Shown piece after piece: positions 802-11,496 of a stretch of DNA of 11,496 nucleotides (positions within the stretch are counted from its first letter, which is position 1; each line of letters starts with the position of its first letter). The notes under the pieces were generated by a model. That model ran no database searches, was not told where the DNA came from, and worked only from the letters and a program-made list of their open reading frames with translations. The position numbers and the translations under genes were made by a program. The stretch is from Lachnospiraceae bacterium UBA4292. GTDB lineage: Bacteria; Bacillota; Clostridia; Lachnospirales; Lachnospiraceae. The stretch spans positions 1-11,496 of the forward strand of contig DGVE01000176.1 in assembly GCA_002395865.1 (NCBI GenBank), written 5' to 3'.

Positions 802-1974
802 TTACATGGATTCGTAAATCTTTCTGCAATCCTCTTCATCCAGTCTTACGAAGCCCTGGATATAGCCGCTCCTGCCGTTACCGTGGCAGAGCACATTTAC
901 AAGTGTGGGAATGTCCTCCTTCTTCGCTCCGAGCTCCTCAAAGGTAACAGGCATGCCTATGGACTTCAGGAAGTTTTTAAGCGCCTCGATACCCGCAAGC
1001 GCGGTCTTTTCGGGATGAGCGAAATCCATATCACAGCCCCATACCCTTACGGCAACCTGAGCGAAACGCATCACATCGTGATTCATGACGTATTTGAATA
1101 CCGCGGGCATGGTCACGGCGAGTCCCGCGCCGTGAGCGCAGTCGTAGAGAGCGGAGAGCTCGTGCTCTATGTTGTGGCTGTTCCAGTCCTGGCTTCTTCC
1201 GACACCAACCGCGTTGTTGTGAGCCATCATTCCGGCCCACATTATGTTGGCGCGCGCGTCGTAATTATCCGGATCGGCTATAACGCGGGGAGCCTCGTGC
1301 TTCATCGTGAGCATCAGGGCCTCGATGAGTCTGTCGGTAACCTCGACCTCAGTCGTGTTGGTAAGATATCTCTCATACAGATGCGCTATGATATCGGTAG
1401 CGCCTGCAGCAGTCTGGTAGGGCGGGAGAGTCTGTGTGAGGGCAGGGTTTAATATGGAGAATTTAGGCCTCAGTGCGTCGCCGCTGGCGCCGCGCTTTAA
1501 CATGCCCTCCTCTTTCGTGATGACAGAATCGGGGCTGCCCTCGCTTCCTGCAGCCGCTATCGTGAGGACCGTACCTAAGGGCAGAGCCTCGCTGATGCGC
1601 CTGCCGCAGTAGAAGTCCCAGAAGTCGCCGTCATAGAGAGTTCCGGCAGCTACCGCCTTGGAACTGTCTATGACGCTTCCGCCGCCCACGGCGAGTATGA
1701 AATCGACCTTTTCTGCGCGGCAGAGCTCGATGCCTTCATAGACCAGTCCGCTTCTGGGATTCGGTTTAACACCGCCGAGCTCCACATAGCTTATACCGTT
1801 CTTGTCGAGTGAGGCCCTCACTCTGTCCAAAAGTCCTGAGCGCTTAGCGCTGCCTCCTCCGTAGTGGATGAGAACGCGGCTGCCGCCGAAGCGCTTCACG
1901 CAGGCTCCGACCTTGCTCTCAGCGTCCTTGCCGAATACGAAACAGGTGGGTGAATAGAAAGAAAAATTATCCAT
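802..1974 (-). CDS. Iron-containing alcohol dehydrogenase, NAD(P)H-dependent butanol dehydrogenase (BdhA/YqhD-like)
   Basis: This 390-residue protein has the normal length for group III (iron-dependent) alcohol dehydrogenases, which interconvert aldehydes or ketones and alcohols in the cytoplasm. The N-terminal Rossmann-like half carries YGGGSAKRSG (38-47) and the nucleotide-binding GGGSVIDSSKAVA (97-109). The helical C-terminal half carries all four expected metal ligands: Asp194 and His198 (GATDIIAH), His267 (SHNIEHELS) and His281 (CAHGAGLA); the 4-residue and 14-residue spacings match FucO and BdhA. The start is ATG at 1974-1972, preceded by AAAGGA (1987-1982) with a 7-nt spacer. It is a single gene with its own promoter (2090-2118) and a structured leader. 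A fermentative or aldehyde-detoxifying role is inferred from the family; substrate and cofactor preference are not visible. Intact, with no frameshift seen. Confidence 0.95.
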   Translation of the reverse strand: MDNFSFYSPTCFVFGKDAESKVGACVKRFGGSRVLIHYGGGSAKRSGLLDRVRASLDKNGISYVELGGVKPNPRSGLVYEGIELCRAEKVDFILAVGGGSVIDSSKAVAAGTLYDGDFWDFYCGRRISEALPLGTVLTIAAAGSEGSPDSVITKEEGMLKRGASGDALRPKFSILNPALTQTLPPYQTAAGATDIIAHLYERYLTNTTEVEVTDRLIEALMLTMKHEAPRVIADPDNYDARANIMWAGMMAHNNAVGVGRSQDWNSHNIEHELSALYDCAHGAGLAVTMPAVFKYVMNHDVMRFAQVAVRVWGCDMDFAHPEKTALAGIEALKNFLKSIGMPVTFEELGAKKEDIPTLVNVLCHGNGRSGYIQGFVRLDEEDCRKIYESM

Positions 1975-2031
1975 TTTCGGATCCTTTCGCAGGCGCGTGG
2001 CGGGTACTGATGTGCCTGCCGTATCAGTACC
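1975..2031 (-). promoter_or_regulatory. Structured 5' leader of the alcohol dehydrogenase: predicted H-type pseudoknot abutting the RBS
   Basis: Read on the minus strand, a perfect 9-bp stem pairs GGTACTGAT (2031-2023) with ATCAGTACC (2011-2003). The 11-nt loop is ACGGCAGGCAC. Its GCAGGC (2019-2014) is complementary to GCCTGC (1994-1989), which sits 8 nt beyond the stem and directly before the Shine-Dalgarno AAAGGA (1987-1982). This would form a pseudoknot of 9 bp plus 6 bp, five of those six being G-C pairs, next to the ribosome binding site. No U-run follows, so it is not a terminator. GCAGGCAC, the 17-nt gap, GCCTGCG and the 13 nt to the ATG are nearly repeated in the leader of the adhesin gene. 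Pairings are seen in sequence; a regulatory role is inferred. An alternative is a DNA operator dyad, with arm centres 20 bp apart. Confidence 0.5.
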
Positions 2032-3517: not shown

Positions 3518-4548
3518 TGGACAGTTTTATCAATGAAAAATACACCATACTCGACGGGACTCTACTCGCACTGAACGATTTAAACAGGGAGCTTTTTATT
3601 CCGGCCACGGTGGGAGGCCACAGGATACACAGGGTCGGCTCCGGAGTGAACTGCGCGAAGGATCTGTGGAGGATAAGCTTCGCCGAGGGCATTACCCACA
3701 TAGGCAGGGAGGTCTTTGGAGCTGCCGAGAACATAAACGAGATCTTGCTTCCTGCCACTTTGAAGGAGATAGATGAGTGGAATATCGCTGCCTCCGCGAG
3801 GGAGGAGGGAAGACTTAAGATCACACTGAAAAGGACTTTTAACAGCGCAGATGAGCTGGACGAGATAATGGCTTCGAGCCTGATGACAGATCAAGACAGA
3901 TATATACTCACGAGCCATGCGAATGATCCGAGGTTTTTGAATGTGCTCCGCGGACTTTCCCTCACAACGAACGGTCTGAGGCAGGCCGCTGTGATCGACA
4001 GGAGAATGAACGGGCTGTACAGAGCGGATGCGCAGGGCAGGACCATGGATCAGATGCCTTTTGTCGGACGAAGGGAAAAAATACCCGTGGGCCGGGGGGA
4101 TAACGAGAACACCTTCAGAAGGGCCATGGTGAAGCAGCTGCTGAAAGAGGACGGCGTATATCATATCGACGGTGAGAGCGAGTCATTTCACGAGACGGAG
4201 ATCATGAAGAACCAGTCATTCGGGCCGGGGCATGTGGCACTGCTGACTTTTTATGGCAGGGAGATACAGACCAACAACGAAACATGGACCATTCCTTTTC
4301 ATGTGAGCATGGGGACCTACTATTATCCGGAGCTTGTGAAGGTGGTGTTAAAGGGCAGGAATCATTACATATACCGGCAGATATCTCTGGCGACAGGCGC
4401 GAGGTCGCTCGGGGACAGAGGTGAAAGGCCGTTTTACATCAGGGAGTGCCGCACAGAGGTGTATGATGAAAACGGTGATCCTCTGAACGATATCGCGACG
4501 GCAAAAGCGGTATTTGCCAAGTACAAGCTCACGGCTATGCTCAGATAG
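3511..4548 (+). CDS. BspA-type leucine-rich-repeat protein with an unrecognised C-terminal domain
   Basis: The protein is 345 residues from the GTG at 3511, or 343 from the ATG at 3517. Residues about 25-90 have the LRR_5/BspA look: FIPATVGGHRIHRVG, then ISFAEGITHIGREVFG, then INEILLPATLKEID, alternating short strands with the Phe/Ile-glycine-x-x-Phe pattern. Residues 110-345 match nothing I recognise. They include an RRAMVKQLLKEDGVYHIDG stretch and a strand-rich end rich in Tyr and aromatic residues. There is no signal peptide, unlike most BspA-like LRR proteins, so it is probably cytoplasmic. Start: AGAGGA (3496-3501) is 9 nt from the GTG, whereas the ATG overlaps the preceding TGA (TGATG), suiting translational coupling; both are possible. 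In the operon it could recognise a target for the MoxR/vWA machine, but this is inference. Confidence 0.8.
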   Translation: MLMDSFINEKYTILDGTLLALNDLNRELFIPATVGGHRIHRVGSGVNCAKDLWRISFAEGITHIGREVFGAAENINEILLPATLKEIDEWNIAASAREEGRLKITLKRTFNSADELDEIMASSLMTDQDRYILTSHANDPRFLNVLRGLSLTTNGLRQAAVIDRRMNGLYRADAQGRTMDQMPFVGRREKIPVGRGDNENTFRRAMVKQLLKEDGVYHIDGESESFHETEIMKNQSFGPGHVALLTFYGREIQTNNETWTIPFHVSMGTYYYPELVKVVLKGRNHYIYRQISLATGARSLGDRGERPFYIRECRTEVYDENGDPLNDIATAKAVFAKYKLTAMLR

Positions 4549-4564
4549 CGCGGATGATACCAGA

Positions 4565-5800
4565 ATGAATATCAGAGAACTATTGAATTTTGAAAAGAAT
4601 ATATATGAGCGCGATGCCGAGAGGATACAGCAGGGGCTTTTGAAGTTCAAGATGGATCTTCTGAAGCTGTACCCCTTCTACGGCGATATCGTCATGAGGA
4701 TACCCGTCATAGAGGACGCGACCGTGGCTACCGCTCAGACCGACGGCAGGAGTATCCGGTACAACCCGAGGTTTTTGAAGAAAATGAACGAGGGACAGAG
4801 GAACTACGTCCTTATGCACGAGGTGTTCCATGTGCTCTTCCTGCACTGGAAGAGAGTGGCGGGGCGTGATCAGAGGTTGTGGAACGTCGCCTGCGACCTC
4901 GTCGTGAACGGGACCATCGACAATATCCACTGGAAGACCTACGGCAAAAAGGATATAGAGATCGAGAGACCGCCCGAGGGCTGCTTTTACCCGGGAAGAT
5001 ATATGGGAGACCCTGTGGAGGAGATCTATGCCGGACTGTTAAAGGAGAACAAAGGCGGTGGCGGCGGGGGAACGATACGATTTAACGGAAAGCCTGTGTA
5101 CGTGCGGCCCGATCTGAAGGAGCCCGAGGTGCTCACACCGGAGGAGACTCAGGTCATTGAAGCGCAGATAAAGACCATGATAAACGACGCCATCAAAAAG
5201 CGCGGACTCGGTGCCTCGTATATGATACCGGAGCAGCTTCTCAAGATAACTCAGACCAGGAAGCTCCCGTGGCATAAGCTGCTGTTTGAGTTTTTGTCCA
5301 TGCGCGAGACGGATGAGAGCTCATATTATACACCCGAGAGGAAGTACATACACATGGGTATGATAGTCCCCGGGACCGCAAGGAGCGAGGACGAGCTGGG
5401 GGAGATATGGGCTTTTGTGGATTCGTCCGGTTCCATTGGCAGTAACGAGCTGAAGCAGTTCATGACCCAGCTCTACAGGATCGCGAAGGAATTTCACTGC
5501 ATCTTCCATATCGCCTTCTGGGACACGAAGGTCACGGACGTCTATAAAAATGTGACCGACAGGGAGAAGATACTCAAGTGCGCGCCGCGGCATTCGGGCG
5601 GCACGGATATCAACTGCGTCTACCGCTATATAAGGGAAGAGAAACTGAAGCCCGCGGTCATGATCATTCTGACGGACGGATATTTCGGAGAGGTCACGGA
5701 AAATGTCGGAAGTCTCAGAAAGAAGACGATACTCGTGGTGAGCGAGGATGGCGCAAGATTTGACAACAATAACAAGGTAGGGAGACTGGCGCAGCTGTAG
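4565..5800 (+). CDS. Zinc-metallopeptidase-like/von Willebrand factor A protein (DUF2201, CoxE-like vWA)
   Basis: This 411-residue protein joins two parts seen together in DUF2201-type proteins. The N-terminal half has LMHEVFHVLFLHW with an HExxH zinc-peptidase motif (His85, Glu86, His89), followed by NVACDLVVNG (Asp111, Asn115), the family's usual second motif. After a glycine-rich linker (K163 then six Gly) and a helical stretch, the C-terminal vWA domain has the MIDAS sequence DSSGS (286-290), a threonine-aspartate in GGTD (345-348) and ILTDGYF (368-374). All MIDAS elements look intact, so metal and ligand binding is plausible. Whether the HExxH half cuts protein or is a structural relic is unknown for this family. 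The start is ATG at 4565; an upstream in-frame TTG at 4514 would overlap the LRR gene. The Shine-Dalgarno site is weak. It lies 16 nt after the LRR gene and 32 nt before the MoxR ATPase, its expected partner. Confidence 0.9.
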   Translation: MNIRELLNFEKNIYERDAERIQQGLLKFKMDLLKLYPFYGDIVMRIPVIEDATVATAQTDGRSIRYNPRFLKKMNEGQRNYVLMHEVFHVLFLHWKRVAGRDQRLWNVACDLVVNGTIDNIHWKTYGKKDIEIERPPEGCFYPGRYMGDPVEEIYAGLLKENKGGGGGGTIRFNGKPVYVRPDLKEPEVLTPEETQVIEAQIKTMINDAIKKRGLGASYMIPEQLLKITQTRKLPWHKLLFEFLSMRETDESSYYTPERKYIHMGMIVPGTARSEDELGEIWAFVDSSGSIGSNELKQFMTQLYRIAKEFHCIFHIAFWDTKVTDVYKNVTDREKILKCAPRHSGGTDINCVYRYIREEKLKPAVMIILTDGYFGEVTENVGSLRKKTILVVSEDGARFDNNNKVGRLAQL

Positions 5801-5832
5801 GTTGGTTTGATGGCTGCGTCCGGGAAAAGGAT

Positions 5833-6924
5833 ATGAATCTGAGAACATTTAGGGAATGTGTTGAATTTAATATACAGCACGGTATAAAGCACTCGATACT
5901 GGGGCTCGGCGCTCCGGGCGTTGGAAAGTCGCAGATAATAAAGCAGATAGGCAAAAAGTTCGGCTACAAGGTAATTGACCTGAGGCTGGCGCAGATGTCT
6001 GAGGTGGAGATCGGCGGTCTCATCTATCCGAATGAGGACCACACGAAGACCCGCTGGCTCTCGCCCGAGGTGCTGCCGGACGAGGAGAGGGACGGTAAGA
6101 ACACGATACTGCTTCTCGATGAGATAACCTCCTGCTCGAAGCGCGTGCAGGTGGCGGCTTATCAGCTTATACTCGACAGGAGGGTGGGGCAGTACAAGCT
6201 TCCGGAGGGCACTTATGTCATAGGACTCGGAAACCGCGAGGACGACGACGGAGTGTACATAAGGCTGGCCGGCCCGCTGGCAGACCGCTTCGAGATACAT
6301 TATATCGATGTGGATTACGCGATATGGAAGCAGGATTTCGCGATTCCGTTTAATATCCACCCGTTTGTCTTAAGGTATCTGAGCTTTAAGCCGCAGGCAC
6401 TCCACACACAGACGAACGATCCCGACAGCATGGTGTTCGCGACGCCCAGATCGTGGGAGAGAGTCAGCGATATTTTAAAATGCTGCGACGATCTGGAGAA
6501 CCCGGTGGTGGTGGCCAAGATCGCGGGCAATATCGGAACCGTCGAGACATCACAGTTCGTGAGATTCTTAAAGGATGACAGAAGCCTGGTGAGCGCGGAG
6601 GACTTCATAGAGGGCAGGATGAAGGCACCGACGGATCCTTCTGAGACGGCCATCCTGATCAATGCTCTCGTGGAGAAGGCGTCGTTTCTGCGCGGAGTAT
6701 CGTCAGTAGATGAGCTGAGTCCACAGCAGAGGACACTTACCTCGAAGATCATATCCGCCATGTTCAGGCTCTCAACGCCGGAGAGCACGGTGGTAGGCCT
6801 CAGAGATATGCTGGAGATCAACAGATATGTCGTTAGAAAGGTGTTCCTTGAGAACGATGACGAGAAGGCCATGGAGTTCATTTCAAAGAACAAGTATATG
6901 CTCGGGCTGACGGAGAACAGATAA
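5833..6924 (+). CDS. MoxR-type AAA+ ATPase
   Basis: The 363-residue protein has a Walker A motif GAPGVGKS (26-33), a Walker B motif ILLLDE (92-97), sensor 1 in GLGNRED (Asn134) and the MoxR-like PLADRFEIHYID (148-159) with the arginine expected at the ring interface. MoxR ATPases form hexameric rings and work with vWA-domain proteins as chaperone-like machines that insert metals or remodel protein complexes. The gene directly downstream of a vWA/metallopeptidase gene fits this pairing. The start is ATG at 5833, with GGGA at 5822-5825 and AAAGGA at 5826-5831 upstream; the latter is very close to the start. The C-terminal half (about 175-363) is helical and less conserved; KFISKNKYMLGL-like helices end the protein. 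The target of this machine is not known. Confidence 0.93.
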   Translation: MNLRTFRECVEFNIQHGIKHSILGLGAPGVGKSQIIKQIGKKFGYKVIDLRLAQMSEVEIGGLIYPNEDHTKTRWLSPEVLPDEERDGKNTILLLDEITSCSKRVQVAAYQLILDRRVGQYKLPEGTYVIGLGNREDDDGVYIRLAGPLADRFEIHYIDVDYAIWKQDFAIPFNIHPFVLRYLSFKPQALHTQTNDPDSMVFATPRSWERVSDILKCCDDLENPVVVAKIAGNIGTVETSQFVRFLKDDRSLVSAEDFIEGRMKAPTDPSETAILINALVEKASFLRGVSSVDELSPQQRTLTSKIISAMFRLSTPESTVVGLRDMLEINRYVVRKVFLENDDEKAMEFISKNKYMLGLTENR

Positions 6925-7530: not shown

Positions 7531-7559
7531 TTGACATTTGACCTCCCCCCAGTTAGAAT
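7531..7559 (+). promoter_or_regulatory. Near-consensus sigma-70/A promoter of the adhesin gene
   Basis: TTGACA (7531-7536) is a perfect -35 and TAGAAT (7554-7559) is 5 of 6 to the -10 consensus, with a 17-bp spacer. Start would be near 7566, giving a leader of about 135 nt. The spacer contains a C6 run, part of an inverted repeat described separately. Confidence 0.8.
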
Positions 7560-7585
7560 CAAGACAGATTTTAAAGTGGGGGGAG
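7543..7585. repeat. Perfect 9-bp inverted repeat bracketing the -10 of the adhesin promoter
   Basis: CTCCCCCCA (7543-7551), in the -35/-10 spacer, and TGGGGGGAG (7577-7585), about 12-20 nt into the predicted transcript, are exact reverse complements 25 bp apart. Arm centres are 34 bp apart. Because the left arm lies upstream of the predicted start, the pair cannot be an RNA hairpin of this transcript. A two-site operator is the simplest reading. It could fold in read-through RNA from the operon upstream. Confidence 0.6.
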
Positions 7586-7615
7586 TATTCTGCCCTTTTA
7601 TAGGATAAAAGTATA

Positions 7616-7640
7616 AAGTCTGAAGGAATATATAAGACTT
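7616..7640 (+). promoter_or_regulatory. Hairpin in the adhesin leader, upstream of the pseudoknot
   Basis: AAGTCT (7616-7621) pairs with AGACTT (7635-7640) around a 13-nt A/G/U-rich loop that contains GAAGGA. It ends 2 nt before the pseudoknot stem. Stability is modest; it may be part of the same structured leader. Confidence 0.35.
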
Positions 7641-7642
7641 CG

Positions 7643-7700
7643 TCGGTGTCGCTGCAGGCACGGCACCGATAGGCAACATGCCTGCGGTAGGGTAATACAG
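7643..7700 (+). promoter_or_regulatory. Structured adhesin leader: predicted H-type pseudoknot with a competing hairpin at the RBS
   Basis: TCGGTGTCG (7643-7651) pairs with CGGCACCGA (7661-7669), 9 bp including one G-U. The 9-nt loop CTGCAGGCA holds GCAGGCA (7654-7660), exactly complementary to TGCCTGC (7679-7685), giving a second stem of 7 bp. The 9-nt linker TAGGCAACA contains a second AGGCA (7671-7675) that can instead pair with the same TGCCT (7679-7683) as a 5-bp hairpin with a 3-nt loop, so two states compete for one strand. The Shine-Dalgarno TAGGG (7688-7692) follows at once, and the ATG is at 7701. Loop, 3' strand and spacings match the leader of the alcohol dehydrogenase. Pairings are seen; ligand and function are unknown. 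Confidence 0.55.
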
Positions 7701-10700
7701 ATGACAACAAAGAGAAGTCACAACAGTATCTTCAGAAGGGCTACTTCGTTCGTTCTGTCAGCTGCCATGGTGCTCAGCTCCATGACTGTTTCGATAGCTG
7801 AGGGGGAGAGTACCTTCAGTGTTCCGAAGGAACAGGATTCTGCCAGTGCGATCAATTTTGAGACGATCCTCGGCGGAGCTGTGGACTACGGTATCGTGGC
7901 TGATAAAATCATCCAGAATTCGCACATGGAGACTACATTCGCGACGCATGAGTTCGTGAACAACGAAAGCAACAACGATGTGGATTTTGTTCACGATAAA
8001 GAGATTCATTTCATAATCGGAAGTCTCGGACTTGATGATTCGGGTAATCCCTCGGTTGTAAGACTTGGTAATACGTTTGCCAGCTCGATCTTTATTGAGG
8101 CACCATCAGAAGTGTTTGACGGGTTCGACGGGGTGGCACACAATATCTCCGGGAAGAAAAATGGCAATTTTCTTTTTATGGGTAACCTTGATGAATCGGG
8201 TAAGCCCATAGTCCGCGCGATTAATGAGGATGCCGGGGCCAACGTGACCAGACTTATCAATAAGATAAGTGATGAGGGTGAGTGGTCTGACAGACTATCT
8301 GCCAAGGCTACATCCGACGAATACAAACTCGGCTCTGATCATATCACAGATAATAGCGGCTACACCACCATTGATGTGGACAGTCCTGAGTTTGAGAACA
8401 AGGTCGTGTACATCGATATGGATGCAGACCTTCTCAGAAGCTGGAACAAAACAAACGGTATCACTATCAAGAAGCGTTCTTCGACTATTGTCGTATTTAA
8501 TGTTGAGGATGATGTGGTCAATGATGTTTACGGTGAAAACGGGGCATTGCAGACAGACAAGTTTAAAGTCCTCACAAACGGCGAGACGATCGTTTCGGTA
8601 TCGAATATAAGCGGAAATCTTTCACCTTACGATGAGAGCACCGTCGGGGCTGTCGGCGTGGACAGCGAGCTGTGCCAGAAGATCATATTCAACATACGTA
8701 CGGATAATGATGTAATACTCGGCAAGATGGCCGGAACCATACTTGTTCCTTATTCTAACTACGTGACGCTGAATAATGGTAATATTTCGGGATGGCTTGT
8801 CGCAAAGGGAACCGTTGAAGTGGCTGTGGAATTCCACTACCTGTACCAGGGAGGAAGCACGGACAGCTATGGTCAGATGCATTTTGCGGCTCATAAGAAC
8901 TTTACCTATAAATATGCGGACAAGAACAGCGTTGAAGAGGACTCCAGTGTGTATATGAAGGAGGGTCAGTATGACTTTATCTATCAGGAGTACAGCGATG
9001 CGGACTATACCGTGCCTATTGGAGCTGCGCAGCTCAGAGCGGTAAAATCCACTAATTTTGTGATCTTCCCCACTAACTCCTTCTACTGTGACGATGCCCA
9101 TGCCTCAGATCCTCACTTTGTGGCTAAGGACACAAATAAAGACTTTTATTTCAGGATCACCGAGAGTCAGGTCAAGAAGACTGACGGTATCGAGAATTCC
9201 GACGGTTATATAAATATCGTTTTGAACGTTGACGTAGATAAAGAGGGAAACTTTAATTATACAGTCTCGTCCAAAACAGTTACAGGCAATAACATCACAT
9301 ATGCGACAAATGAAAATGTGACCATGTCGGGCGTTCAGTTCGACCTCGGCGCCTTCTACAACCGTATCAAGGATGATGAGGTTGTGTTCAGAAAAGAGGA
9401 TGCAAACGGTAACCTGATCTCAGGGGCAAGGCTTCGCATCACAAGAAAGGACGGACGGAGGTTTACAAGCTACGGCTGGGGTGATCCCAGAAACCTCACC
9501 GCATATCAGAACGGTGTCACACAGGTCGGTAACAACTGGATAGGAAGCCAGGACGATCAGGATCCCGGCATGCAGATGAATCAGGGAAGAGGAACCTACG
9601 GCTCCTTCTCATTTGTGACCTCTGATTCGTTTGCAACTATCGTAAAGGGCCTTGACAGGGGCGTGACCTACATACTCACAGAGGCAGATACTCCCCAGGG
9701 ATATTCCACATCCTCACCCATTGAGTTTACGATCGATGAGGAGGGAAGGGTAAAGAGCCGCAATGCAAATGCCAACACCATCACCATGGTGGATGATAAG
9801 CCCTATGAGGTGAACATCAGCAAGTCACTTCTCGGCGGCGGCAATGAGATAAGCGGCGCGACTCTTACTCTTACAAATAACGACAGAAAGAGTCTTGAGA
9901 GCGTAACTGTCACCAGAAACAATACTGCACTCAATTCTTCAAATAACAGCGGATTTACTCAGTCGGGCAGCAGCATCAGCTTTACCACCGGCGGCGGTAC
10001 CTTTACTAAATTCGGAAATCTCCCGGAGGGAACCTATACCCTTACCGAGACGGCTGCTCCGAACGGCTTTGACGTTACTTCCTCCATAAAATTTACAGTA
10101 ACTCATGATGGAGCGATAGTTCTTGAAGGCAACGTTGCGGCCGATCAGGGCAAGGTTGAAGGCAGAACTGTCACGATGTTTGACAAAGCCATCGCGAAGT
10201 TTGCCAAGGTCGATGCTTCCACGTACAACAAGCTTGAAGGGGCAGTTTTTGCTATTTATAGTGTGACGGATTCTGAAACACCTGTTGCCACATTTACCAG
10301 CAATCAATGGCAGGCTACATCTGTCAGCCTCGGTAAGGGTGATTACAGGCTGGTGGAGACGGCGCCGCCTACCGGATATAAGCTTCCCGAGAGTGATATT
10401 ATATTCTCCATCAACGCTGAGGGTAAGCTTGTTATCGATGGCAGCGTTATCGATGACAATACATACTCTGTTCCCAATACGTTTTCGGAAGATACATATA
10501 CGGGCGAGTTTAAGATCGTGAAGATGGACAGCGTTACCGGACTGAAGGTCGCAAATCCCGCAGGACTTAAGCTTTCTCTCTCAGGACCTGATGGCTATTA
10601 TCGCGAATTCGAGAATGCATCGGAATTCACAGTGGATTCTGTTTCCAGAGTGGGAACCTATACTTTGAAGGAGGATAGTACTCCTTCAGGATATACGTAC

Positions 10701-11496
10701 AGCTTTCCCGCGGACGGAATAAAGTTCAGTGTAAGCTTTGATACCGACGGGAATCTCGTACTCTCCAAGGTGACTTCTTCCGATCTGTATTTGATCGAGA
10801 CAGATGACACTACTAAGATCTGCACGCTCAAAGTCTACAACAAGCCTGAAACCTTTGATATAAAGGTGAACAAGTTTGAGAACGTTGGCTGGGACAATCC
10901 GATAAGCGGTGCCACTATGGAGATCAGCTATACGAATGCCGAAGGCCAGAAGGTGGTCGTTGAGACTTGGGTAAGTGATGGAAATTGGAAGGAGATAAAA
11001 GGTCTAAGCAAGTCTATAGTATATACCATTTCAGAAATCAGTGCGCCTTCCGGCTATAAGAAGCTTTCGACATCCGTTCAGGTGAGGGCATCTTCCAATT
11101 GGCCGTATTATGATCTTGTGGGTACGGTCGATCCAGCAGTTGCAAAGTTCGTCGACTGGCAGGGTATATTTATATACAATCAAAAGAATGATACACCCGG
11201 ACCTCAAAACGGTACCATCATTCTCAAGAAGACCATTAACGGTGAGCTCACTGAGGAGGAGAAGAGCGGCCTTCTGAAGTTCACTATAACTACGGATGAC
11301 AACGGTACGACCAAGTATCTGAAGCGTGACGGTTCGCTTACGACGGATGCGACAGAGGGTACTATCACTCTGGCGTCTACTGATTACGACAGCACAAACG
11401 ATGAGTATGTCATAACTCTGTCGAAAGTACCAAATGGTTCATATACCGTAACCGAGACTACGCAGTCACCGGACGGCAAGTCCATGACTGTAAAAT
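7701..11496 (+). CDS. Large secreted SpaA/Cna-B repeat adhesin with choice-of-anchor-A-like head (3' end outside window)
   Basis: The frame is open for 1265 codons from ATG 7701 (TAGGG, 8-nt spacer) to the window end. Residues 1-33 are a signal peptide: basic start KRSHNSIFRR, hydrophobic core, cleavage likely after SIA. Residues about 52-380 resemble the choice-of-anchor-A/adhesive head: ILGGAVDYGIVAD near 56, then GTILVPYSNYV and NGNISGWLVAK before EFHYLYQ near 377. Residues 380-555 are unassigned. From about 560, SpaA/Cna-B-like domains follow. Candidate isopeptide Lys/Glu/acceptor sets are K565/E661/D698 or D699, K708/E783/D828, K836/E886/N926, K941/E991/N1047 and K1058/E1112/N1160. A sixth, less typical domain starts at the TPGPQNG linker near 1165, with E1252. 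Such self-crosslinked domains stiffen surface stalks. A C-terminal LPXTG-type anchor, if present, lies beyond the window. Ligand is unknown. Confidence 0.92.
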   Translation, partial: MTTKRSHNSIFRRATSFVLSAAMVLSSMTVSIAEGESTFSVPKEQDSASAINFETILGGAVDYGIVADKIIQNSHMETTFATHEFVNNESNNDVDFVHDKEIHFIIGSLGLDDSGNPSVVRLGNTFASSIFIEAPSEVFDGFDGVAHNISGKKNGNFLFMGNLDESGKPIVRAINEDAGANVTRLINKISDEGEWSDRLSAKATSDEYKLGSDHITDNSGYTTIDVDSPEFENKVVYIDMDADLLRSWNKTNGITIKKRSSTIVVFNVEDDVVNDVYGENGALQTDKFKVLTNGETIVSVSNISGNLSPYDESTVGAVGVDSELCQKIIFNIRTDNDVILGKMAGTILVPYSNYVTLNNGNISGWLVAKGTVEVAVEFHYLYQGGSTDSYGQMHFAAHKNFTYKYADKNSVEEDSSVYMKEGQYDFIYQEYSDADYTVPIGAAQLRAVKSTNFVIFPTNSFYCDDAHASDPHFVAKDTNKDFYFRITESQVKKTDGIENSDGYINIVLNVDVDKEGNFNYTVSSKTVTGNNITYATNENVTMSGVQFDLGAFYNRIKDDEVVFRKEDANGNLISGARLRITRKDGRRFTSYGWGDPRNLTAYQNGVTQVGNNWIGSQDDQDPGMQMNQGRGTYGSFSFVTSDSFATIVKGLDRGVTYILTEADTPQGYSTSSPIEFTIDEEGRVKSRNANANTITMVDDKPYEVNISKSLLGGGNEISGATLTLTNNDRKSLESVTVTRNNTALNSSNNSGFTQSGSSISFTTGGGTFTKFGNLPEGTYTLTETAAPNGFDVTSSIKFTVTHDGAIVLEGNVAADQGKVEGRTVTMFDKAIAKFAKVDASTYNKLEGAVFAIYSVTDSETPVATFTSNQWQATSVSLGKGDYRLVETAPPTGYKLPESDIIFSINAEGKLVIDGSVIDDNTYSVPNTFSEDTYTGEFKIVKMDSVTGLKVANPAGLKLSLSGPDGYYREFENASEFTVDSVSRVGTYTLKEDSTPSGYTYSFPADGIKFSVSFDTDGNLVLSKVTSSDLYLIETDDTTKICTLKVYNKPETFDIKVNKFENVGWDNPISGATMEISYTNAEGQKVVVETWVSDGNWKEIKGLSKSIVYTISEISAPSGYKKLSTSVQVRASSNWPYYDLVGTVDPAVAKFVDWQGIFIYNQKNDTPGPQNGTIILKKTINGELTEEEKSGLLKFTITTDDNGTTKYLKRDGSLTTDATEGTITLASTDYDSTNDEYVITLSKVPNGSYTVTETTQSPDGKSMTVK

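Follow-up and report, generated by a model that had tools for sequence, protein, structure and literature searches.

The two pseudoknot-type leaders of the window, the 11,496-nucleotide stretch of DNA analysed here, appear to be copies of a mobile, non-coding element of about 90 nt that is patchily distributed in the Lachnospiraceae. We propose, with moderate confidence, that a small mobile element inserts between the Shine–Dalgarno (SD) sequence and the start codon, brings a weak SD of its own, and folds as a pseudoknot. The proposal is built on the structure of the copies, their sense orientation, their position, and their presence or absence at orthologous loci, all of which are observed. 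The genes entered would be unrelated to one another, and in each the element would lie in the sense orientation between the gene's own SD and its start codon. Its transcript is predicted to fold into a 5′ hairpin, P0, then an H-type pseudoknot made of stems P1 and P2, followed by a short SD and the start codon. We suggest that the pseudoknot is the translation-permissive form, and therefore that an insertion would leave the host gene unsilenced. Any factor stabilising or opening P2 could then tune translation.

The window leaders and their relatives in the same genome

A first-pass annotation of the window had described a pseudoknot-type leader preceding two unrelated genes, and its letters and positions were confirmed on the sequence for both copies. 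That is, the loop of the P1 hairpin pairs, as P2, with a strand just 5′ of the SD (Table 1). P0 is weak in both window copies; the score for the adhesin copy, 8.5, is modest, as a score of 8 is reached by 58 of 208 control windows.

Table 1. Coordinates of the two leaders in the window and of the genes that follow them.
Feature	Position	Strand	Details
P0 hairpin, adhesin copy	7616..7640	+	AAGTCT 7616-7621 pairs with AGACTT 7635-7640
P1 stem, adhesin copy	7643..7669	+	TCGGTGTCG 7643-7651 pairs with CGGCACCGA 7661-7669; 9 bp, one G-U
L1, adhesin copy	7652-7653	+	CT
P2 5′ strand GCAGGCA, adhesin copy	7654..7660	+	within P1 loop
L3 TAGGCAACA, adhesin copy	7670..7678	+	spans P1 to P2; family version often ..CACCA
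P2 3′ strand TGCCTGC, adhesin copy	7679..7685	+	7 bp with 7654-7660
SD-like AGGG, adhesin copy	7689..7692	+	in spacer
SpaA-repeat (pilin/adhesin-like) protein, downstream gene	7701..11496	+	ATG 7701; continues past window end; Pfam
P1 stem, alcohol dehydrogenase copy	2003..2031	-	GGTACTGAT (2031-2023) pairs with ATCAGTACC (2011-2003); 9 bp, perfect
P2 5′ strand GCAGGC(A), alcohol dehydrogenase copy	2013..2019	-	pairing part 2019-2014
P2 3′ strand GCCTGC, alcohol dehydrogenase copy	1989..1994	-	6 bp with 2019-2014
L3, alcohol dehydrogenase copy	2002-1995	-	
SD AAGG, alcohol dehydrogenase copy	1983..1986	-	
Iron-containing alcohol dehydrogenase (Fe-ADH), downstream gene	802..1974	-	ATG 1974; Pfam

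Two other features of the window were recorded. At 7540-7590, 5′ of the adhesin gene, an inverted repeat, CTCCCCCC...GGGGGGAG, overlaps a promoter-like TTGACA-17-TAGAAT and may be an operator; two promoter-like sites were found versus 0.9 expected. At 4514-6924 lies an operon-like pair, named by reading the sequence, of a metallopeptidase/VWA-like protein and a MoxR-type AAA ATPase; another MoxR-like gene of the same genome stands behind a copy of the element (L045).

The genome of the window, which is fragmentary (231 contigs, 71.67% complete), was searched on both strands with the pattern GCAGGCA-N8..32-GCCTGC, the backward pattern serving as control. The pattern gave 20 forward and 19 reverse matches at 23 places, most of them counted on both strands, versus 1 and 2 for the control. 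It follows that the element is commoner than chance. For the first set, 22 of the 23 places were read (C167 was outside this first reading), and 17 had P1 and a start codon; five matches without P1 (C24, C47, C76, C77, and C108) were dropped. In the alignment of the 17 copies with hairpin and start codon, A1, double changes occur in 9 of 11 P1 pairs, and covariation is 0.313 versus 0.105 in shuffles; P2 was hardly free to vary because the search pattern had fixed it.

A covariance model, R1, searched against the same genome with a cut-off of E 1e-3, gave 30 matches, of which 28 lie directly 5′ of a start codon in the sense orientation. A script placed the start codon no more than 18 nt past the end of the match in 26 of the 30, and two were added by eye: L060, whose start codon is TTG, and L059 (ScpA), in which an extra hairpin precedes the ATG. 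The remaining two matches, L056 and L057, belong to a variant that lacks the 5′ strand of P2 and are embedded in longer palindromes. At both places (G000:C198:20292-20355 and C12:13740-13803), a related P0–P1 module occupies the middle of a long imperfect palindrome; terminator-like hairpins are present, and an ORF is not evident. Such a module could be a gene for a non-coding RNA, or else a parent of the element. Separately, L053, L054, and L059 carry an extra hairpin in L3 (GTAC...TTCG...GTAC), which may be a nested repeat.

Pairing, the carried SD, and the start codon

The family was examined in alignment A3, which holds 53 copies from 9 genomes aligned to R1. It leaves out the variants L175, L178, and L182, the insert copies L053, L054, and L059, as well as L044, L060, L056, L057, L153, L154, and L155; a looser alignment run took in 8 reverse-strand matches. 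P1 and P2 were parsed in each copy by a generic script without fixed letters, although the searches that had yielded the copies included P2 in their pattern or model. Paired cells make up 92.1% of A3 versus 78.6% of shuffled alignments, and covariation is 0.395 versus 0.148.

P1 is 9–11 bp long, 11 bp in most copies, and its sequence varies freely. Double-sided changes occur at 11 of 11 pairs, in 3 to 23 sequences each, in an alignment that was fitted to P1 and so favours it. For P2, which the model structure did not include, double changes are found at four of seven pairs, in one sequence each. The compensatory changes in stem 2 thus come from single sequences: L047 (GCAGACA/TGTCTGC), which is among the matches newly added by the covariance model, L173 (ACAGGC/GCCTGT), and L181. 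The covariation-like support that had been claimed for the outer stems from the two window leaders is borne out for P1 in the family. P0 often abuts the 5′ side of P1, though it is not clear in every copy; its score is at least 10 in 30 of 53 copies versus 27 of 208 control windows. In all three helixes G-U pairs outnumber A-C oppositions (41 versus 25 in P1, 16 versus 2 in P0, and 9 versus 3 in P2), a mild sense-strand bias. In G245, the variant leaders L175, L178, and L182 have the hairpins and a GATGCCTGCGGCATAGTG end, but their P1 loop lacks the P2 5′ strand; L175 and L178 have AAGGAGA inside the P0 loop.

A short SD (AAGG) lies about 4 nt past P2, and in 32 of 52 copies the start codon stands 15 nt from P2; the value for L048 is a misparse, and this copy is set aside in the SD counts. 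Because the carried SD (AGGTA) could base-pair with the 3′ strand of P2 (TGCCT), P2 and an SD-occluding hairpin are mutually exclusive. When L3, the P2 3′ strand, and the spacer are folded locally, two or all three of the AGG bases become paired in 32 of 37 AGG-bearing copies, with a mean z of −1.2 versus shuffled spacers. The P2 duplex is the stronger of the two in 49 of 51 copies when the costs of the pseudoknot loops are ignored, and it follows that the pseudoknot should normally free the SD. The element thus has a pseudoknot strand that is also able to pair with the ribosome-binding site, as in an ON-switch of the timP type, and the pseudoknot probably frees the carried SD as it does there. 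The SD-hiding hairpin, P3, was not retained as a conserved helix: none of its eight inner pairs, which were scored, shows significant covariation, and P3 is kept only as the complementarity between the P2 3′ strand and the SD.

In about 10 of 51 copies almost no SD is left, and therefore a simple SD switch cannot cover all copies. It is tempting to go further and propose that the element is a cassette for start sites, its sense insertion aimed at the last bases before start codons, with a pseudoknot that replaces the ribosome-binding site and sustains initiation even once the native SD and the carried one have both been eroded, as may be seen before the MoxR gene (L045), before a response regulator gene (L049), and at L055. 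We hold this bolder version to be a tentative one, with the balance against it. If it is true, bacteria would have a mobile element of a new kind and a signal for initiation that does not depend on an SD.

These same copies, L045, L049, and L055, which keep the structure with almost no SD, would also fit a regulator acting in trans, that is, an RNA-binding protein, a small RNA, or the ribosome recognising P2 and L3, the element having spread by selection for global control. P2 is far more conserved than P1: it is about 7 bp long and nearly fixed as GCAGGCA/TGCCTGC, with six of the seven pairs identical in at least 49 of 53 sequences, and L3 often reads CACCA. The constancy of P2 is, however, in part a matter of ascertainment, since both the search pattern and the model contain P2, and a global regulon is hard to reconcile with 53 downstream proteins that include no homologs common to different genomes. 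We consider a regulator of this kind unlikely.

Filled and empty sites in the Lachnospiraceae

The first-pass annotation had proposed searching relatives for the motif, and further examples upstream of genes were found with covariance-model and pattern searches, patchily within the Lachnospiraceae. Matches with E of at most 1 occur in 31 of 41 genomes (40 relatives and the window's own), those below 1e-3 solely in the window's own genome, G000, and in G001. Within their genus, copies are present in these two of four genomes, and G001 has six. A sample of 397 genomes of the family contained 10 with matches at E 1e-4; after the sequences had been read, G000, G163, G245, G273, G282, and G352 were kept, and G143, G246, G299, and G410, whose matches are without P1/P2 or a start codon, were dropped. 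Further carriers are G041 and G042, goat-omasum and sheep-rumen Lachnospiraceae records (RGIG2862 and RGIG6836, metagenome assemblies), and G426, of the genus of G163. In a sample of 391 genomes of the class, the two with matches, G000 and G282, are both Lachnospiraceae. The absences in the family and class samples are soft because 12 candidates were scored per genome. A pattern scan of genome contigs (14 N) gave 33 stretches, with L137 (E 5.7e-22) and L139 (1.8e-17) as clear copies; L142, from a Treponema record (E 3.3e-4), and L118 (E 0.0035) were not accepted by eye.

A blastn search with one typical copy against phage and plasmid collections gave no match. Pattern scans of viral contigs gave 1, 14, and 0 stretches, and model R2 run over the 15 viral loci gave three matches with E of at most 1: L283 (E 0.014), and L288 and L292 (E 0.11), whose matches cover P1 and its loop alone. 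L283 lies on a GC-rich viral contig (IMGVR_UViG_3300045996_000160, 2693-2616, minus strand) and has a 9-bp P1 whose loop, GCAGGCA, pairs with a downstream TGCCTGC; it departs from the family in its 8-nt L1, its spacer of about 34 nt to the next ATG, and the lack of a visible SD. It may be a chance match or a distant cousin and is not counted as a copy.

Comparison of orthologous sites reveals the presence and absence that mark a MITE-like mobile repeat. In the empty HPRT sites of G422, G420, G425, and G423, the end of the upstream gene contains GGAGG and is followed, after 7–10 nt, by the ATG. The filled site in G163 has the same upstream end and reads GGAGGAG-element-ATG, the upstream reading frame stopping at a TGA within P0. 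At a second junction, before a glutamine amidotransferase-like gene, the upstream frame has the same stop in P0. At L161 and L170 the stop codon of the upstream gene lies inside the inserted element (the frame ends KV-stop in P0).

Reading by eye found no element in 33 upstream regions of relatives of the same genus, for 11 genes of G000 and two of G001, a few of which may be paralogs; they mostly show an ordinary SD. Nor was one found in 18 relative regions for three genes of G163. With the cut-off at E 1, R2 matched just one of these 51 loci, and that with E 0.25. Parsimony suggests that the element was gained at filled sites rather than lost from empty ones, presumably through some agent of transposition. 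On unsystematic inspection no transposase, terminal inverted repeat, or target duplication was noticed, the ends of the element being placed to within a few bases. An SD-like stretch stands just 5′ of a strong P0 in 9 of 19 copies versus 13 of 95 control windows (p = 0.002, ranging from 0.002 to 0.10 across nine pairs of cut-offs); this signal is missing in many other copies.

There are four near-identical copies in G163 and a single copy in G426, whereas in their genus 11 of 13 genomes are without the element. Over the family, mean likeness between copies hardly differs within a genome (0.568) and across genomes (0.561). Of the 53 copies, 18 have their nearest neighbour in their own genome versus 11.6 expected, and shuffles reach up to 23. 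This comparison speaks against a simple burst model.

The presence or absence at orthologous loci, the patchy distribution, and the near-identical copies of G163 would also be expected of selfish DNA alone. Elements that are IS200/IS605-like or REP-like transpose as single-stranded DNA with hairpins. The hairpins here might likewise serve single-stranded DNA transposition, with the site before the start codon being the sole tolerated place or the target, and with no function of the RNA. But strongly diverged copies retain P1 pairing through compensatory changes, and the excess of G-U over A-C in P1, P0, and P2 points, mildly, to the sense-strand RNA, which makes selfish DNA alone rather improbable.

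The downstream genes are a random-looking set. Pfam searches with ten of the proteins gave Fe-ADH, the SpaA-repeat protein, CDP-alcohol phosphatidyltransferase, a response regulator, CodY, ThiC, phosphoglucose isomerase, guanylate kinase, MoaC, and S18; HPRT, EF-G-like, MoxR, RidA, FeoB, ScpA, CdaA, YitT, and others are names from reading the sequences. In an all-vs-all blastp search of the 53 downstream proteins from 9 genomes (E 1e-5), the sole pair is two response regulators, both of G000, and no homologs are common to different genomes. The only shared host gene met with is YitT, common to two species of one genus, G163 and G426, the latter not among the nine. A common regulon is rejected on the want of shared downstream homologs together with the relatives' upstream regions, 51 in all, that are without the element, and for these reasons co-regulation is unsupported. 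The earlier idea that the leader co-controls surface adhesion and alcohol metabolism is likewise unsupported, same-genus relatives being without the leader; what stands of the proposed cis-regulatory RNA class is a structured class with no Rfam match and a pseudoknot beside the ribosome-binding site.

Rfam 15 gave no match at either window leader up to E 5 (four chance-level matches lie elsewhere in the window), and over 20 element loci, up to E 1, its only matches, a TPP fragment and one to trpB, lie outside the element. In the preQ1 and SAM-II translational riboswitches, P2 of an H-type pseudoknot takes in the SD or lies directly against it. A ligand-sensing translational riboswitch class, as first suggested for the leaders, would share with these a pseudoknot adjoining the SD, its P2 covariation coming from single sequences, and a conserved P2 and L3, but we consider it very doubtful given that the element differs from them in having no Rfam match, no metabolic theme, no conserved gene association or consistent link to the genes of one pathway or ligand among the 53 downstream proteins and the relatives' loci, and relatives without the element.

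Related systems and significance

We return to the reading we prefer, a mobile pseudoknot set between the native SD and the start codon. Structured inserts with which translation must cope are known. A hairpin lies between the SD and ATG of T4 gene 25, and the byp elements of yeast mitochondria are mobile bypassing elements inside coding sequence. The T4 hairpin differs from the element in being single and fixed; byp, also mobile, differs in lying within coding sequence. We know of no small interspersed repeat that is confined, in sense, to the SD–ATG gap, that has its own SD, or that is pseudoknotted.

The closest parallel for the proposed ON role of the pseudoknot is the timP mRNA of the type I toxin–antitoxin system timPR. 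Its pseudoknot, which is 7 bp long and has covariation in its favour, forms in competition with a structure that masks the ribosome-binding site, and it is needed for translation (PMC11228461). As in the element, a pseudoknot is set against an RBS-hiding fold, and in timP the pseudoknot form is the translated one. In contrast, timP is a single gene conserved in enterobacteria, in which two stem-loops interact and the antitoxin RNA TimR inhibits, and in the available part of the report it is not described as mobile (PMC11228461). The IGR IRES, likewise a pseudoknotted RNA, is reported to drive translation in E. coli; it differs from the element in being a viral triple pseudoknot (PMC9458429). 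As for mobility, BOX/RUP, ERIC, Correia, and other MITEs resemble the element in being short, multi-copy, intergenic, and folded when transcribed. They can alter the expression of neighbours, and Correia elements, again like the element, are often directly upstream of genes (PMC3049150; PMC10969869).

Among the titles listed in a literature search on this type of leader and on repeats before start codons, none describes such an element. Short interspersed repeats that fold have been described, as have pseudoknot leaders, but their union in the SD–ATG gap, in sense and with its own SD, is not one we know. If the proposal is correct, a transposable RNA structure rewires translation start sites in a family of gut and rumen bacteria, and a gene gains in one step a ready-made, perhaps tunable, ribosome-binding site. 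The element would also offer a natural system for studying how initiation proceeds on structured leaders whose SD is weak or missing, and it would be a new source of species-specific differences in expression in the Lachnospiraceae.
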